A stretch of DNA of 64,000 nt from Lachnospiraceae bacterium (GTDB lineage: Bacteria > Bacillota > Clostridia > Lachnospirales > Lachnospiraceae): the NCBI GenBank assembly GCA_015056925.1, contig SVFJ01000007.1:1-64000 (forward strand), read 5' to 3'. This document shows, one piece after another, positions 5,159 through 19,604 of this stretch (positions within the stretch are counted from its first letter, which is position 1; every line of letters starts with the position of its first letter). The translations under genes were made by a program, and so were the position numbers. Under the pieces are notes generated by a model. That model made no database searches and was not told the DNA's origin. It saw only the letters and a list, made by a program, of their open reading frames with translations.

Positions 5159-5446
5159 CATTTTTAAGGTTTTTCGGAGAGTTTCCAAGTATTGTATGAA
5201 ATTGCAACAATTAACTGTTTTACACTATATATATCGACATTTTTCTGAAAACATAAAGAGTTTACAAAAATTATTTTTTTTAATTTTATTTCATCTTCAT
5301 TTTAAGATGGAAATGTTGTCTGAAAGGGTATATAATTTTGAATCATATTCTTACGGTCTTTGCTGTAAATGCTTCGACCTGTACTGAACAGTTACTACAA
5401 ATTCATATAATTGACAATAACCATACTACTTATGGAGGAAATATAC

Positions 5447-6826
5447 ATGTATCAAATTAATTTTAATGAACCTATTCATATTCACTTTATGGGAATCGGC
5501 GGTATCAGCATGAGTGGGCTTGCTGAAGTTTTATTAGACGCAGGTTTTTCTATCAGCGGTTCTGACGACCGCAAGTCACTGCTTACTGAACATCTTGCGT
5601 CCTTAGGTGCAAAGATATCTTATGGGCTTCGTGCTGAAAATATTACGCAGGACATTGATTTGGTCGTTTACACTGCTGCAATTTCTGCTGACAATGCCGA
5701 ATATGCAGAGGCTGTATCAAAAGGGATTCCAATGATGTCACGTGCTGTTCTTTTGGGACAGATTATGAAGAATTATAAGACTCCGATTGCAATCAGCGGA
5801 ACACACGGCAAGACAACTACCACCTCTATGGTATCAGAAGTACTTCTTGCAGCCGATGCAGACCCGACTCTTTCCATCGGAGGAATTTTAAAATCCATCG
5901 GCGGCAATATCCGCGTTGGTAAATCAGAATATTTTGTAACAGAAGCCTGCGAGTACACCAACTCTTTTTTGAGCTTCTTTCCGCGTATCAGTATCATATT
6001 AAATATAGAAGAAGACCACATGGATTTCTTCAAGGATATTCATGAAATACGCGATTCCTTCCATCGTTTTGCAAGACTTTTACCCAATGACGGATATCTG
6101 ATTCTAAACAGTGGTATTGAGAATTATCGTGAGCTCACTTCTGATTTAACCTGTGATGTGATTACCTTTGGTAAAGATGCCTCTTCCGATTACAGTTATA
6201 CTGATTTAAGCTATGATGAATTCGGAAGACCTTCCTTTACTTTATTAAAAAAAGGAGAACCTCAGTACAAGGTATCTCTTGGCGTTGTAGGAGAGCATAA
6301 TGTATTGAACTCACTTTCCGTAATTGCACTTATGGATATCTTGGGTATGAACACCGAGACCGTACTTACAGCACTTAACAGATTTACAGGTACTGACAGA
6401 CGCTTTGAGGTAAAGGGCAAAATAGGCGGTATTACCATATTAGATGACTATGCACACCATCCAACAGAGATAGAAGCAACCCTGAAGGCTGCGGTCAACT
6501 ACCCGCATAACAAGCTTTGGTGTATTTTCCAGCCTCATACTTATACACGTACTAAGGCATTTTTATCTGATTTTGCAAAGGCGCTCTCTCTTGCTGATGA
6601 GATTGTCCTGACAGACATTTATGCTGCCAGAGAGAAAAATACTATCGGAATTACCTCTGATGATTTACGGAAGGAAATCGAAAAGCTGGGCAAACTCTGT
6701 CACTATTTCCATTCCTTCGACGAAATTGAAAATTTTTTATTAGAAAATTGTATCAACGGTGATTTGTTGATAACTATGGGAGCCGGAGATGTTGTAAAAA
6801 TCGGCGAAAACCTTTTAGGAAATTAA
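5447..6826 (+). CDS. murC: UDP-N-acetylmuramate--L-alanine ligase MurC
   Basis: Adds L-alanine to UDP-MurNAc using ATP, the first amino-acid step of peptidoglycan precursor synthesis in the cytoplasm. The 459-residue protein shows the N-terminal UDP-binding Rossmann motif HFMGIGGISMSG (about 13-24), the Mur ligase P-loop GTHGKTTTT (118-126), the central ligase domain and the C-terminal domain containing DDYAHHPTEI and FQPHTYTRT, all typical of MurC. The start is ATG 5447 behind GGAGG (5434-5438); the longer frame from 5411 has no binding site and extends beyond the family N-terminus. It stands alone rather than inside a dcw cluster, as is common in Lachnospiraceae. A run of DnaA boxes begins directly at its stop codon. 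Confidence 0.96.
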   Translation: MYQINFNEPIHIHFMGIGGISMSGLAEVLLDAGFSISGSDDRKSLLTEHLASLGAKISYGLRAENITQDIDLVVYTAAISADNAEYAEAVSKGIPMMSRAVLLGQIMKNYKTPIAISGTHGKTTTTSMVSEVLLAADADPTLSIGGILKSIGGNIRVGKSEYFVTEACEYTNSFLSFFPRISIILNIEEDHMDFFKDIHEIRDSFHRFARLLPNDGYLILNSGIENYRELTSDLTCDVITFGKDASSDYSYTDLSYDEFGRPSFTLLKKGEPQYKVSLGVVGEHNVLNSLSVIALMDILGMNTETVLTALNRFTGTDRRFEVKGKIGGITILDDYAHHPTEIEATLKAAVNYPHNKLWCIFQPHTYTRTKAFLSDFAKALSLADEIVLTDIYAAREKNTIGITSDDLRKEIEKLGKLCHYFHSFDEIENFLLENCINGDLLITMGAGDVVKIGENLLGN

Positions 6827-7023
6827 TTATCCACACTATCCACATCTTTTTTGTCCCAAATCGGGCAAAACCGATGTGGATATTTTCATTTTCCATCCAC
6901 ATAAATGCCGTCATTTTTTCACACCCTCAAAAACCTTATTTTATATAGCTTTTTCCTATAAATGCCATTTGCTAATCCACAATATCCACACTATCCACAT
7001 TTCGCAAAAATCCAGTATTCACA
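6827..7023. promoter_or_regulatory. Cluster of eight DnaA-box-like 9-mers
   Basis: Between murC and the DnaD-like gene lie TTATCCACA (6827-6835, perfect consensus), CTATCCACA (6836-6844), TGTGGATAT (6875-6883, reverse), CCATCCACA (6893-6901), TAATCCACA (6973-6981), ATATCCACA (6982-6990), CTATCCACA (6991-6999) and GTATTCACA (7015-7023). DnaA binds TTATNCACA; near-consensus boxes in clusters act as DnaA-titration or regulatory sites in Firmicutes. The pair 6837-6846 and 6873-6882 also forms a 10-bp inverted repeat followed by a T-rich stretch, which may double as the murC terminator. The downstream genes encode replication-initiation proteins, so DnaA control is a reasonable inference. Confidence 0.75.
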
Positions 7024-7079
7024 AGGCTTTGCGGGCTCTGGGGACTTGTATTTTTTTAGGGTTATGTTACAATACATTT

Positions 7080-7182
7080 ACTGTTCAGTACCTTCACAGT
7101 AAGAGTAAAAATCCATTCAAAATTACCTTCGGTAATGGGATTTTTACTTGAGACACCATTGTGAATACCTACACTGAACAGT
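7080..7182. repeat. About 103-bp palindromic element ending in ACTGTTCAGT
   Basis: ACTGTTCAGT (7080-7089) is exactly repeated in inverse at 7173-7182. Inside, AGTAAAAATCC (7104-7114) pairs with GGATTTTTACT (7138-7148), and ATTACC (7122-7127) with GGTAAT (7131-7136) around a TTC loop, so the whole element can fold as one long imperfect hairpin. It lies directly upstream of the DnaD-like gene. A single half site, ACTGAACAGT, occurs at 5383-5392 before murC, and the element at 16327-16496 has similar termini. No transposase is present. It may be a MITE-like repeat or a transcribed leader structure. Confidence 0.6.
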
Positions 7183-7198
7183 TAACGATATATTTAAA

Positions 7199-8398
7199 AT
7201 GACAACATACAGGGAGTGGTATTGGAATAGACGGCTGCTTCCGCGAAAGGCATGGTTAAAAGGGATGAATCGTCTAAACATTTATAAACCTTCATACAAA
7301 GAGCAGACAATGCTTTCTAATTATTTTATTGATGAATTTATGGCTGATGCAAACGATGCACAGCTCAAGATATATTTATTTCTTATCCGCATGATGAGTG
7401 CAAATCTTCCAACCAGTGTATGCGATATTGCAGACAAATTTAATTACACAGAGAAGGATGTATTACGTGCTTTGGCATACTGGGAATCCAGACAGCTTCT
7501 TAGCTTAGAGTATGATGCCGCTCATAATCTGACCGGTATTCAGGTTCTTTCTTTAGACAACCCTTATGAAGTACAAAAGCCTGCCACACGCATTACACCT
7601 GTTTTATCCTTTGTGAGACCTGCATCTATGCAGACAGGCATGACTGCACGTCAGGCAAGACCGGTCGCAGCTCCACAGGCTACTTACACAGCACCTCAGC
7701 CGGCTTCTATCAGCCAGTATCCGGTACAGCAGTCTACCACTGCTCCTGTTAAGCCTGAATACTCTTTGGATGACTTGAAGATTTTCAAGAGCAACGAAGA
7801 CGCACAGCAGATTCTCTTTGTTGCAGAGCAGTATCTTGGCAAGCAACTTACAAGAAAAGACATGGAGACCGTCCTCTTCATCTATGATACACTTGGTTTT
7901 TCATCAGATTTAATTGACTATCTGATTCAGCACTGTGTCGAAAAGGGCAAAAAAGATTTCCGTTATATCGAGAAGGTTGCCCTTGCATGGGCTGACCAGG
8001 GAATCTCTACTCCTAAAGAAGCACAGGAGATTTCCAAGCAGTACGATAAGACTGTATATACAATTATGAAATCCTTGGGTAAGAACAATGCTCCTGCCCC
8101 TAAGGAGATGGAATATATTAATAAATGGACAAAGGAATACGGCTTCCTTTTAGATGTCATTCAGGAGGCATGCGATAAGACTGTTTTAACCACTGACAAT
8201 CATCGTTTTGCCTACGCAGACGGTATCCTTACAAAGTGGTATCAGGCGGGTGTGCATCACAAATCAGATATTCCCCAGGCTGATGCTTCATATCAGCGCA
8301 TGAACCAGAATCAAAAGATGCAGAATAATAAGTTCAATCGTTTCGAGCAGAATACATATGATTACGATGAGCTTGAAGCGGCAATACTTAGCAACTAA
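7199..8398 (+). CDS. DnaD-domain primosome protein
   Basis: A 399-residue DnaD-family protein, expected to help load the replicative helicase at origins and restart forks. The N-terminal winged-helix part (about residues 23-100, with NDAQLKIYLFLIRMM and ADKFNYTEKDVLRALAYWE) and the C-terminal DnaD/DnaB2 domain (about 190-370, ending in ILTKWYQAGV) are separated by a low-complexity linker rich in Ala, Pro and Gln (about 135-185). The next gene, 18 bases on, encodes the helicase loader, which fits. Start is uncertain: ATG 7199 has no clear ribosome binding site; ATG 7265 (MNRLNIYKPS) matches where family similarity begins but its AAAAGGG motif directly abuts the codon. A DnaA-box cluster lies upstream. 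Confidence 0.85.
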   Translation: MTTYREWYWNRRLLPRKAWLKGMNRLNIYKPSYKEQTMLSNYFIDEFMADANDAQLKIYLFLIRMMSANLPTSVCDIADKFNYTEKDVLRALAYWESRQLLSLEYDAAHNLTGIQVLSLDNPYEVQKPATRITPVLSFVRPASMQTGMTARQARPVAAPQATYTAPQPASISQYPVQQSTTAPVKPEYSLDDLKIFKSNEDAQQILFVAEQYLGKQLTRKDMETVLFIYDTLGFSSDLIDYLIQHCVEKGKKDFRYIEKVALAWADQGISTPKEAQEISKQYDKTVYTIMKSLGKNNAPAPKEMEYINKWTKEYGFLLDVIQEACDKTVLTTDNHRFAYADGILTKWYQAGVHHKSDIPQADASYQRMNQNQKMQNNKFNRFEQNTYDYDELEAAILSN

Positions 8399-8416: not shown

Positions 8417-9388
8417 ATGCCACTTACCAACAGTCAATATGATAGCATTATCCGAGCATATGAAGAGAAACAGAGAGCTTCCAGACATCGTCTGGAGGCT
8501 CATACTGAGATAGTATACCGACAGATTCCCAATTATGAGGAGTTAGACAGACAAGTATCCCGCATTTCTATTGAACAGGGAAGAAAGCTCCTAAGCGGTG
8601 ACGCAAGTGCTCTTCCCGAGCTAAAGAAAAAGCTTCGCGAGCTTACCGCAAAGAAAGCTGCCCTTTTAGAAGAGCATGGCTTTGCTGCCGATTATCTGAC
8701 ACAAACCTATGAATGCAGTGCCTGCAAGGATACAGGTTATGTAGATAACCGTAAGTGTAACTGCTTTAAGCGAGCAGAAATCGACCTTATCTATGAACAA
8801 TCCAACATAAAAAATTTGTTAAAAACTGAAAATTTTGCTCAATTGTCTTATGAATATTATCAGGGCGAAGACCTGCTTAGGTTCCAAAACGCTGTGAAAT
8901 TGTGCCAAAAATTCATAAAAAACTTCAATTCGGACTACCACAATCTGTTTTTTTATGGTACAGTAGGTACGGGTAAGTCATTCCTATCTTCATGCATTGC
9001 AAAGGAGATTATTGAACAGGGTAAGCTGGTAATTTATTTCAGTGCCACCCAGTTGTTTGATGCATTATCCAAGAGCACCTTTGATAAGGACAGCAAAGAA
9101 GCAATGTCGGGGATTTACGAAGATATTTACGAATGTGACTTATTAATCATTGATGACCTGGGAACAGAGCTTACTAATGCTTTTGTATCGTCTCAGTTAT
9201 TTTCATGTTTGAACAATAGACATTTGCGTAAGAAAGCAACAATTATTACGACAAACCTATCCATTCCTGAGATGAGAGACCGATATTCAGAACGAATCTT
9301 TTCCCGCATTACAAGCAATTATGAGGTATGCAAAATATCCGGTCCCGATATCCGGATAGAGAAAAAAAAGTCGAAGAATAGAAAGTGA
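8417..9388 (+). CDS. DnaC/DnaI-like helicase loader ATPase
   Basis: A 323-residue AAA+ protein of the DnaC/DnaI helicase-loader class, which delivers the hexameric replicative helicase onto DNA. Visible: a helical N-terminal region (1-95), a four-cysteine zinc-binding segment (C100, C103, C114, C116 in CSACKDTGYVDNRKCNC), Walker A GTVGTGKS (181-188), Walker B LLIIDDLG (242-249), and a C-terminal part with TIITTNLS and the arginine-containing RIFSRI. The Zn segment and the DnaD-like upstream partner favour a chromosomal loader over the related IstB transposase helper, and no transposase is nearby. It lies 18 bases behind the DnaD gene and 10 bases before prs, forming an operon. Confidence 0.9.
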   Translation: MPLTNSQYDSIIRAYEEKQRASRHRLEAHTEIVYRQIPNYEELDRQVSRISIEQGRKLLSGDASALPELKKKLRELTAKKAALLEEHGFAADYLTQTYECSACKDTGYVDNRKCNCFKRAEIDLIYEQSNIKNLLKTENFAQLSYEYYQGEDLLRFQNAVKLCQKFIKNFNSDYHNLFFYGTVGTGKSFLSSCIAKEIIEQGKLVIYFSATQLFDALSKSTFDKDSKEAMSGIYEDIYECDLLIIDDLGTELTNAFVSSQLFSCLNNRHLRKKATIITTNLSIPEMRDRYSERIFSRITSNYEVCKISGPDIRIEKKKSKNRK

Positions 9389-9398
9389 GGATTTTCGC

Positions 9399-10595
9399 AT
9401 GTCAGTACGCGAAGAAAAAAGAAATCTTAATTCGATACCCGTTGGTTCTTTAGGAATTATTCCTTTAGAAGGTTGTAAGGCTCTTGGTGACAAGGTAGAT
9501 GAATATCTTGTTAAGTGGAGAACAGAGCGCGAAAGCGAGCATAAGAACAGTCTTGCATTTTCAGGCTATCAGCGTGATTCTTATATTTTGAAGACCAAGG
9601 TACCACGTTTTGGTACAGGTGAAGCGAAGGGTATGATTTTAGAGTCTGTTAGAGGTGATGACCTTTACTTACTCGTTGACGTTACAAACTATAGCTTAAC
9701 TTATTCTCTTTGCGGACATGATAATCATATGTCTCCTGATGACCATTATCAGGATTTGAAGAGAATTATCGCTGCTGTAGGTGGTAAGGCAAGAAGAATT
9801 ACCGTTATTATGCCATTCTTATATGAAAGCCGCCAGCATAAGAGAACTTCCCGTGAGTCTCTTGACTGTGCACTTGCATTACAGGAGATGGTAAAGATGG
9901 GTGTTGATAACATTATTACTTTCGACGCTCACGACCCACGTGTACAGAATGCAATTCCGTTACATGGCTTTGAAACAGTGTCTCCTACTTATCAGTTCAT
10001 TAAGGGACTTTTAACACATGTACCGGACCTTACTATAGATTCATCTAATATGATGATTATCAGCCCTGATGAAGGTGGTATGAACCGTGCTATCTATATG
10101 GCAAACGTTATGGGTCTTGATATGGGTATGTTCTACAAGAGACGTGACTACACTAAGATTGTAGACGGACGTAATCCTATTGTTGCTCATGAGTTCTTAG
10201 GAACAAGTGTTGAGGGCAAGGATGTATTAATTATTGACGATATGATTTCTTCAGGTGACAGTGTACTTGAGGTTGCTGCTGCATTAAAGGCTAGAAAGGC
10301 AAGACGTATTTTCGTATGTGCTACTTTCGGTTTATTTACAAGTGGATTAGCAAGCTTTGATAAGGCATATGAGGAAGGTTTGATTGACAGAGTTCTTACT
10401 ACTAACTTAATCTATCAGACACCTGAGTTATTAGAGAAGCCTTACTACATCAACTGTGATATGAGTAAGTATATTGCTTATATCATCGATACTTTAAATC
10501 ATGATTCTTCTATTAGCGATTTGTTGAATCCTAACGACAGAATCCACAGCATTATCGAGAGATATAAGAACGGCGAATTAGAGTGCCAGCAGTAA
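9399..10595 (+). CDS. prs: Ribose-phosphate pyrophosphokinase
   Basis: Transfers pyrophosphate from ATP to ribose-5-phosphate to give PRPP, the precursor for purines, pyrimidines, His, Trp and NAD. The 398-residue protein is longer than the usual 310-320, as in a clostridial subgroup with an extended N-terminus (about 50 extra residues) and a C-terminal tail. Key motifs are present: FDAHDP (175-180), the flexible catalytic region around KRRDY (247-251), and the PRPP-binding loop VLIIDDMISSGDS (276-288). It follows the helicase loader by 10 bases and ends at a terminator, so it closes the dnaD-dnaC operon; the link between PRPP supply and replication is suggestive only. Confidence 0.93.
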   Translation: MSVREEKRNLNSIPVGSLGIIPLEGCKALGDKVDEYLVKWRTERESEHKNSLAFSGYQRDSYILKTKVPRFGTGEAKGMILESVRGDDLYLLVDVTNYSLTYSLCGHDNHMSPDDHYQDLKRIIAAVGGKARRITVIMPFLYESRQHKRTSRESLDCALALQEMVKMGVDNIITFDAHDPRVQNAIPLHGFETVSPTYQFIKGLLTHVPDLTIDSSNMMIISPDEGGMNRAIYMANVMGLDMGMFYKRRDYTKIVDGRNPIVAHEFLGTSVEGKDVLIIDDMISSGDSVLEVAAALKARKARRIFVCATFGLFTSGLASFDKAYEEGLIDRVLTTNLIYQTPELLEKPYYINCDMSKYIAYIIDTLNHDSSISDLLNPNDRIHSIIERYKNGELECQQ

Positions 10596-17807: not shown

Positions 17808-17840
17808 TTATTCACATTCGTATGTGGATAGTGTGGATAA
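17808..17840. promoter_or_regulatory. Second DnaA-box group (three boxes)
   Basis: TTATTCACA (17808-17816, plus, consensus TTATNCACA) is followed by TGTGGATAG (17823-17831) and TGTGGATAA (17832-17840), the reverse of CTATCCACA and TTATCCACA. The last two are the same 18-bp tandem pair found at 6827-6844, here inverted. They lie 3 bases past the stop of the heparinase-like gene and about 245 bases upstream of galE. Confidence 0.7.
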
Positions 17841-17843
17841 CTC

Positions 17844-19604
17844 TCACCAACATTCAATTTTTATCACGCTTTCAGACCTACTTCCCGCATCTATCGGAAC
17901 CTTCCATTGTATCAGGTATACATCTTCAGACACACCCTCATGATTACTGTGCTTTTGTGCCAAAACAGCAATCTCTGTCTGACTATCCACGGTAATCTTA
18001 CAACTTCCATGACGCCCCTGTAAGACAACACTATTGTTATCCACAATTGGCTCATACTGCGTAATCAGGTTTTCCACAACGCTGTGAGTTTTTGCGCTTG
18101 GCTGAAAACAATCCCTCACACGCATAGAAAACTTTCCCTTCTCCTCAGGCAATACCTGAATCTTACGCTCCACCTCTGCAATCGCATCCTCGCTATATGC
18201 CGATGCGAAGGATATCATCAACTCTTTTTGTTTTTCATCCCACACAAACGCCCCTGCACAATATTCCTTTCCGGCACATTGTTCTGTATCATTTATGATT
18301 GGAACCGAATGTCCCAAGGAACGATTACACAAGATATCATACCTTCCGGCACCAAAGTATTCCTTGGTATACTCTCCTGCCCCCAAATCCGTTAAAAACA
18401 TTTCGCCCTGATACACTACAAGAAAATGTCCAACATCGTTATGATTATGACTTTCCGCATTATGACCTCCCTTAGCGGCATAACCATTCCCCTGTTTATC
18501 TTTATAAATCATCCACTGCGCAGATGGCAAAAGATGATATTGTTCCTCGTGTGAATACTCTGACTCTGTTTCATCACTTTCATACTTCATCAGCCATCTG
18601 ATATTTCTTTCATTTGTCAGCCAGCGATAACAATGGTCTCCATACAATCCTCTTGCCAGACTATAATCCGGTGTTTCCACCGTCGAAAATCTATGCTTCA
18701 TATAGGCTGTCATTCCCGGTAGGAAGCATTCCTTACTGTTGCCATCTGAAAAGCTGATACTCATTCCCTTCCCAAAGTAACATTTCTGTTGGAACAAAGC
18801 AATATTTTCACATTTCTTTCCTATCATTAAATCAATATTCCCTTGGCTTTCCTCATAAGCCAGCTCTGCAAATCCAGTAAAATAACTCATTCCATAAGAA
18901 TAATAGCCAAGTCCCTCTGTACAGGCGCCATCCTCCTCCAGACCACCTATATAGCATTGCATAGATGCACAGACACGCTGTATACATTCATCCCTTTGCA
19001 CCTTATCCAGTCTTCCCATTCGATAAAGGTAAACGGCGGCCATACCAATAGAGCCTGCACAGACTGCAGACCAGTTACACGGGTCTGTTTCCCAGCCATA
19101 AGCCACTCTTCTCTCCATATACGGCACCATAACTCTTCGTATTACCTCATCCAATATCCGGGTCTTTACCTTATCATCCAATCTGTCTTGTAACAAATAA
19201 ACCAGCTCTGATAAAGTCTGTGCCGTTTCTGCTGCAAACAAATCTATGGTTAGCTCATCCCTTGTACTCGCATTCACATGCGCCGGCAATGCCCAATAGC
19301 GCTCCCTGCATACAGACTCTAAAATATCTGTCAGTTTCTCTATATCCTCCTGCTCTCCACGATACACCGCAAGAATCCCATAAACAGTCAGATACTTTCT
19401 CCTGCCAAAATAAGATGCCTCATACACCAAGCGATTGCCTGTCTGAAAAAACAATTCAAACTCTTTTTCAGTCAATACAGGCATGGCTGTATGTGAAAGC
19501 ACTTTCGCCTCCTGCTCTATTTCCTTCCAAAATCTTTGTAAATATTCAATCTGCTGCTTCTGCATAAGCGATACCACACCTTCCCTCTCATATAGTGTAA
19601 TCAT
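17844..19604 (-). CDS. Heparinase II/III-family polysaccharide lyase-like protein
   Basis: A 586-residue protein with an alpha/alpha-toroid N-terminal part (about 15-330, with DPCNWSAVCAG and EGLGYYSYGMSYF holding the Asn and Tyr expected in the active site) and a C-terminal beta-sandwich starting with GGHNAESHNHNDVGHFLV, the His/Asp motif of heparinase II/III-like lyases (PL12, PL15, PL17, PL21 relatives). Such enzymes cleave uronate-containing chains by beta-elimination. No signal peptide is seen, so an intracellular oligosaccharide lyase is likely. Start ATG 19604 follows AAAGGTG. Exact substrate (glycosaminoglycan, alginate-like or pectic) is unknown. Confidence 0.8.
   Translation of the reverse strand: MITLYEREGVVSLMQKQQIEYLQRFWKEIEQEAKVLSHTAMPVLTEKEFELFFQTGNRLVYEASYFGRRKYLTVYGILAVYRGEQEDIEKLTDILESVCRERYWALPAHVNASTRDELTIDLFAAETAQTLSELVYLLQDRLDDKVKTRILDEVIRRVMVPYMERRVAYGWETDPCNWSAVCAGSIGMAAVYLYRMGRLDKVQRDECIQRVCASMQCYIGGLEEDGACTEGLGYYSYGMSYFTGFAELAYEESQGNIDLMIGKKCENIALFQQKCYFGKGMSISFSDGNSKECFLPGMTAYMKHRFSTVETPDYSLARGLYGDHCYRWLTNERNIRWLMKYESDETESEYSHEEQYHLLPSAQWMIYKDKQGNGYAAKGGHNAESHNHNDVGHFLVVYQGEMFLTDLGAGEYTKEYFGAGRYDILCNRSLGHSVPIINDTEQCAGKEYCAGAFVWDEKQKELMISFASAYSEDAIAEVERKIQVLPEEKGKFSMRVRDCFQPSAKTHSVVENLITQYEPIVDNNSVVLQGRHGSCKITVDSQTEIAVLAQKHSNHEGVSEDVYLIQWKVPIDAGSRSESVIKIECW

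Follow-up and report, generated by a model that had tools for sequence, protein, structure and literature searches.

Why should a dense group of DnaA boxes lie between murC and a primosome operon in a member of the Lachnospiraceae, away from dnaA and dnaN? The window analysed here, a stretch of 64 kb that is contig C2 of a draft genome (3.5 Mb, 183 contigs, 96.6% complete), carries, within positions 6827-7023, eight sites that differ from TTATNCACA by one letter or none. A sequence-only reading of the same DNA had counted eight near-consensus boxes there and had placed them between murC and a DnaD-like/DnaC-like operon; pattern matching recovered the same count, and family models name the neighbours as MurC, a DnaD-domain protein and a DnaC/DnaI-like ATPase. 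The whole window holds 111 boxes at this stringency against a shuffle mean of 91.3, with about 0.34 expected per 197 bp. Having several boxes close to the consensus in a few hundred base pairs, and lying away from dnaA-dnaN, the cluster has the makeup of a B. subtilis DBC.

The genes around the cluster are all on the plus strand. murC (5447-6826; TIGR01082, E 1.7e-139; start codon taken from the sequence) ends immediately before the first box. The dnaD-like gene (7199-8398; PF07261 in two stretches, E 2.9e-39; TIGR01446) follows; translation may in fact begin at the ATG at 7265, the point from which relatives are similar. Next come a dnaC/dnaI-like gene for a helicase-loader ATPase (8417-9388; PRK06835, E 5.8e-105, with DnaC and DnaI models weaker and below their cut-offs) and, 10 bp after it, a prs-like PRPP synthetase gene (9399-10595; PRK06827, E 5.4e-181), likely the third gene of a dnaD-dnaC-prs operon. 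The dnaD leader also contains an inverted repeat with 13-bp arms at 7077-7089 and 7173-7185 (ACTGTTCAGT/ACTGAACAGT core), of which a further copy stands before murC at 5382-5394; when one mismatch is allowed the genome has ten matches, three of them at these places, and the reversed control gave six. A known RNA family at the cluster was rejected, as Rfam returned two matches only, both far below their gathering scores.

Within the cluster, two arrays have no spacer between their boxes (6827/6836 and 6973/6982/6991). In the distal array, box 1 (TTATCCACA, plus strand, 6827) stands directly 3' of the murC stop codon and is abutted by box 2 (CTATCCACA, plus strand, 6836), so that the pair spans 6827-6844; box 3 (ATATCCACA, minus strand, 6875-6883) was found by pattern match and is seen in relatives, and both it and box 2 occupy conserved alignment columns. 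A weaker plus-strand box within the one-mismatch limit lies at 6915-6923 (TTTTTCACA), and a ninth, with two mismatches, at 6893-6901 (CCATCCACA, plus strand; TCATCCACA or similar in close relatives). The promoter-proximal array consists of three abutting and conserved plus-strand boxes, TAATCCACA ATATCCACA CTATCCACA, at 6973-6999. It is followed by GTATTCACA at 7015-7023, also on the plus strand; the offset of 24 bp, counted from where the last abutting box begins, is common to many close relatives.

Groups of this kind appear to be few in the draft genome. The pattern YTATCCACA was found at 136 places and its reversed control at 66, and among the 100 of the 136 places listed at least three per 300 bp occur only at 6827-6999 and 17823-18045 of the window and at 32066-32360 of contig C76, the last adjoining dnaA. 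These 100 of 136 places, obtained with a fixed pattern, test in part the expectation of the sequence-only reading that dense clusters would prove rare genome-wide. Same-strand ATCCACA pairs within 30 bp number 14 (2 in the control), and exactly abutting pairs are confined to window positions 6829, 6975, 6984 and 17823 (1 in the reversed control).

The second abutting site, at 17808-17840, is a minus-strand copy of the 19-mer TTATCCACACTATCCACAT of 6827-6845 together with an inverted TTATTCACA. Its pair (17823-17840) lies directly 3' of the stop codon of a heparinase-like gene (17844-19604, minus strand; PF07940 below cut-off). This weakly matching gene is the neighbour, and hpf was rejected as a candidate for it: PF02482 (HPF) found no match in the 96.6% complete draft genome, though relatives carry hpf, which points to loss or to an assembly gap.

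Conservation before dnaD was assessed in two sets of relatives. The first comprises 80 kept matches of the DnaD protein in a species collection, mostly titled Lachnospiraceae, for which reason genomes marked as same-family are taken here to belong to the Lachnospiraceae; the second takes one genome per genus from 150 genera, with dnaD found in 149 and the upstream region taken from 142. Seven genera were left out of the 142, six for weak DnaD matches (G423, G437, G441, G446, G461 and G534) and one for a match at a contig end (G432); G437 carries two abutting pairs before dnaD (L131). At least three boxes precede dnaD in 115 of the 142 genera (2 in the reversed control) and an abutting pair in 110 (control 0), rates that may be too high, since the six genera whose DnaD matches are the weakest of those listed are among the ones omitted. 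These figures reject a chance origin of the cluster, and they bear out the suggestion, made from the single sequence, that conservation should be looked for upstream of dnaD in related genera. The other 27 genera have fewer than three boxes, and in some of them the gene start may have been misjudged, as in G449, where a pair lies before DnaD and outside the scored region. A looser box pattern has at least three matches within up to 700 bp before dnaD in 78 of the 80 loci; the exceptions are L039, with 73 bp of DNA, and L077, with two boxes.

The boxes are sharply localized. Across the 80 relatives, the 400 bp before dnaD carry 11-12 boxes per kb per sequence, and none of the other 200-bp bins listed from -3000 to +4000 exceeds 0.8 (reversed control, 0-8 matches per bin). 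Closer relatives usually show two abutting plus-strand boxes, a minus-strand box 38-39 bp on, and then a second array of two or three boxes that abut, often followed by GTATTCACA at a distance of 24-25 bp. The best conserved columns of the intergenic alignment are the boxes, a run of T after a hairpin, and a -10 element. Gene order is similarly stable, with MurC upstream of dnaD in 141 of 142 genera and 76 of 80 loci, and the prs-like gene directly after dnaC in 77 of 80 relatives, mostly at a gap of 6-60 bp. Loci from seven other families have neither MurC upstream nor an abutting pair at dnaD (0 of 14 in each case), compared with abutting pairs at 13 of 16 loci from the own family; in an eighth family, the abutting pair of one locus (L358, f40) lies some 500 bp upstream of a DnaD-like gene.

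Dense boxes on both strands might be taken as the mark of a second, or even the true, replication origin. We regard this as scarcely credible, and oriC at 6827-7023 was rejected, in agreement with the sequence-only reading, which had thought it unlikely. The dnaA gene lies on contig C76 with boxes flanking it on both sides, and the interval between dnaA and dnaN holds a box followed by a DnaA-trio run, CTATTACTA. For comparison, DnaA was sought in 30 genomes of the family, 4 of which gave no match, leaving 26 dnaA loci, in which the upstream side of dnaA is covered in part. A trio next to a box occurs in neither the window cluster, nor the 142 dnaD-upstream regions, nor 142 pieces from the far (murC-side) end of the same regions, as against 8 of the 26 oriC loci, a proportion that makes the sensitivity of the trio test low. 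In the relative G414, which has three boxes with one abutting pair before dnaD, GC skew over 20 sampled stretches changes from -0.11 at 1415 kb to +0.10 at 1442 kb, with dnaA at 1436 kb, and remains positive across dnaD (1675 kb), where no switch was seen.

The spacing of the boxes further separates the two kinds of site. Before dnaD, in 142 genera, same-strand boxes are most often 9 bp apart (183 pairs), followed by 18 bp (26 pairs), 12 bp (22) and 21 bp (20); a distance of 11 bp accounts for 9 pairs. At the 26 dnaA loci the peaks are instead at 11, 12, 33 and 22 bp (11, 10, 10 and 7 pairs), with 4 pairs at 9 bp, and the same rule finds an abutting pair at one of them. The zero-spacer arrangement is therefore typical of the dnaD site and rare, though present, at the oriC of the family. 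It is also unusual for DnaA, given the 11-12 bp start-to-start spacing of the family's oriC and the preference of E. coli DnaA for boxes 2-3 bp apart (PMC11317965). The double boxes of E. coli listed there (mutH/DARS2, polA, purH, nrdA and mioC) are likewise paired at regulatory sites; their spacers are 2-3 bp, whereas the arrays in the Lachnospiraceae window have 0 bp and, in one case, three boxes in a row.

Because zero spacing differs from the oriC of the same family, the arrays could in principle belong to some other protein with TATCCACA specificity that binds 9-bp-phased arrays in place of DnaA. Against this, TTATCCACA is the commonest box at dnaD sites and oriC loci alike, and abutting pairs lie on both sides of dnaA in G475 and adjoin tsaD/gcp in other families. 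Furthermore, DnaA is the only protein in the draft genome matched by the box-binding domain PF08299, by which a DnaA paralogue as reader of the boxes was also rejected. We consider a different binding protein improbable.

Part of the cluster appears to serve a second purpose. Box 2 and box 3 form the base of the stem of a predicted intrinsic terminator of murC (6836-6883, plus strand) with a T-rich tail after it; the inverted repeat pairs 6837-6856 with 6863-6882, and a stretch slightly longer than this folds with an MFE of -24.2 kcal/mol. A simple scanner did not report a hairpin at 6836-6883. To survey relatives, the 222 regions (80 loci and 142 genera) were searched for TCCACA/TGTGGA, which yielded 151 distinct regions, the rest being duplicates or without a match. 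Between box 2 and the minus-strand box lie 26-31 nt, most often 29 or 30; the median MFE of the fold is -20.6 kcal/mol, and at least five T occur in the next 8 nt in 125 of the 151 regions, compared with 17 of 223 after other boxes. A hairpin followed by a T tract, as in intrinsic terminators, is thus present in the window and in most of the surveyed regions. The three variable outer stem letters pair fully in 61 of the 151 regions and not in 90 (permutation mean 31.6, maximum 45, with relatedness ignored), and the inner stem varies among the examples inspected by eye yet stays largely complementary. We read the hairpin as a predicted murC terminator whose base consists of DnaA boxes.

The frequency of this hairpin raises the possibility that the conserved letters are only the murC terminator and promoter DNA, with the boxes incidental. 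Such an account would leave unexplained box 1, the three-box proximal array, and the invariance of the TCCACA/TGTGGA columns beside an unconserved inner stem. This invariance is taken from a separate alignment, independent of the 151 regions, which were picked by those very letters. We therefore hold an incidental origin of the boxes to be very improbable.

What the proximal array might act on is suggested by the DNA that follows it. An extended -10 element of a predicted dnaD promoter, ATGTTACAAT, lies in conserved columns at 7064-7073 on the plus strand (hexamer 7068-7073), and the last abutting box begins 77 bp before the hexamer does; the alignment consensus downstream of the proximal array is TATGnTAnAAT. 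The simple scanner reported no sigma-70 promoter at 7064-7073, and the -35 is weak. Downstream of the last abutting box, 44 of 73 loci have a good extended -10, compared with 7 once the sequence is shuffled a single time, and so do 74 of 97 genera, compared with 9. Its distances, counted from where that box begins, are mostly 58, 67-69, 75-79 and 87-88 bp, in steps of about 10 bp; across 69 values the best period is 10-10.5 bp (R 0.65), followed by 11 bp (0.62) and 9 bp (0.45), a test that overstates significance because the genera are not independent. The boxes thus hold a conserved position relative to a predicted promoter, as expected of promoters regulated by DnaA. The preferred, stepped distances to a conserved extended -10 point to control of transcription and are the main argument for such an effect. 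The distance between the two arrays was also considered as a looping signal and was dropped, periods of 9 and 11 bp fitting as well as or better than 10.5 bp.

We therefore propose, at a probability of roughly two in three, that the cluster is a DnaA operator that couples transcription of dnaD-dnaC-prs to DnaA. DnaA-dependent control of the helicase-loading genes had been suggested from the single sequence, and conservation before dnaD and promoter phasing now lend it comparative support; the zero-spacer geometry, the hairpin held in common with the murC terminator, the phased promoter and the prs-like third gene go beyond that suggestion. In the proposed mechanism, DnaA would occupy the two arrays of abutting boxes. 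The distal one (6827-6883) follows the murC stop codon and its boxes 2 and 3 would double as the base of the terminator stem, and the proximal one (6973-7023) would cover roughly -107 to -57 relative to the predicted start site. Bound there, at a fixed upstream distance and in helical phase, DnaA would act on RNA polymerase, and the output of DnaD, of the helicase loader and of PRPP synthetase would be tied to the level or nucleotide state of DnaA. Activation is weakly favoured over repression, as the array is upstream of the core promoter and not over it. It counts against the operator reading that no contact between the distal array and the promoter is obvious.

Alternatively, the cluster may be a site that titrates or inactivates DnaA, comparable to the DBCs of B. 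subtilis or datA of E. coli, and titration was also the second suggestion of the sequence-only reading: replicated early, it would soak up DnaA and limit re-initiation, with dnaD a mere neighbour. The position of dnaD is compatible with this, at 137-667 kb from dnaA in nine relatives with both genes on one contig (a circular contig is assumed for G472, and draft contigs favour short distances); the three single-contig genomes among these give about 239, 286 and 517 kb. Removal of six DBCs from B. subtilis gives early initiation (PMC5295017). Abutting pairs are also found beside tsaD/gcp, hpf and elsewhere, and those at hpf show no clear promoter phasing. On the other hand, the array at dnaD keeps preferred, phased distances to the promoter and stays with murC-dnaD, and a pure titrator needs neither. 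We consider titration as the sole function unlikely, with an appreciable chance nonetheless. The two functions can coexist, and the distance of dnaD from dnaA in the nine relatives is such that titration may be an added role of the operator.

The abutting pairs elsewhere form a wider set. A 150-genome sample of the family contains the pattern 248 times, spread over 110 genomes, and the control 16 times, in 16 genomes. Of 30 such loci listed, dnaD accounts for 16 and the region before hpf for 5. With 20 further chosen stretches there are 13 hpf loci, representing 12 places as L137 and L145 are the same, the identity of HPF being confirmed by Pfam at three loci and based on mutual similarity at the others. 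The other sites are a mixed group, part of which falls within coding sequence. The boxes lie about 220-550 bp before hpf at L117, L120, L127, L136, L137 (= L145), L144, L146, L147, L149, L150, L160 and L161, and five of these places (L117, L120, L127, L137 and L147) have a single box 52-53 bp before the last pair.

The abutting pair was rejected as a trait of this family only, since of 291 genomes sampled from the class 100 contain it (8 of 11 from the own family and 92 of 280 from others; 15 of 291 in the reversed control). Of the 20 class loci listed, 8 (L346-L351, L362 and L364) have the pair past the 3' end of tsaD/gcp, two of them confirmed by NCBIfam, and such pairs come from five clostridial families. 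At L365 (1501-2882), a locus from another family, an abutting pair adjoins a replicative helicase gene at its 3' end. In vitro, DnaA of B. subtilis binds at the 3' end of tsaD/gcp (PMC4447404), and the match of the clostridial pairs to this bound position independently supports the view that abutting pairs can mark real DnaA clusters.

Comparison with known systems places the cluster between familiar categories. It resembles the B. subtilis DBCs in its dense boxes outside oriC, and the position at the 3' end of tsaD/gcp is common to DBCs and clostridial abutting pairs; the available DBC text names none before dnaD, dnaB or dnaI, whereas here the boxes are followed by a phased promoter of a primosome operon. 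The DnaA-activated sda promoter of B. subtilis, a different gene, likewise has several boxes upstream (PMC4447404). datA and DARS of E. coli are also DnaA-binding loci outside oriC. Caulobacter belongs to another phylum than the Lachnospiraceae. Its dnaB (helicase) and dnaQ are in the DnaA regulon, with predicted boxes before the helicase gene (PMC8203912); the product of that gene is a helicase and not a loader of the DnaD/DnaC type. DnaA as a transcription factor, DnaA-box clusters and the predicted boxes before Caulobacter dnaB are therefore already known. In the open-licence literature, of which coverage was partial, we found no report of DnaA boxes before loader operons of the dnaD/dnaC type, of DnaA boxes in Lachnospiraceae, or of DnaA boxes associated with hibernation promoting factor.

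A bolder and more tentative reading, which we hold as a real but minority possibility, is that abutting 9-bp arrays constitute a distinct DnaA-DNA code in Lachnospiraceae. They would mark regulatory sites, dnaD-dnaC-prs and in some genera hpf, as opposed to an oriC with 2-3 bp spacers, and a non-unwinding complex of the initiator would control its own helicase loader, the supply of PRPP and perhaps ribosome hibernation. The geometry conserved at dnaD, unlike that of the same family's oriC, would make discrimination by DnaA between regulatory and origin sites testable through 0-bp versus 2-3-bp spacers. If the operator reading is true, an abundant gut family would have wired its initiator to the making of its own downstream partners, forming a feedback.
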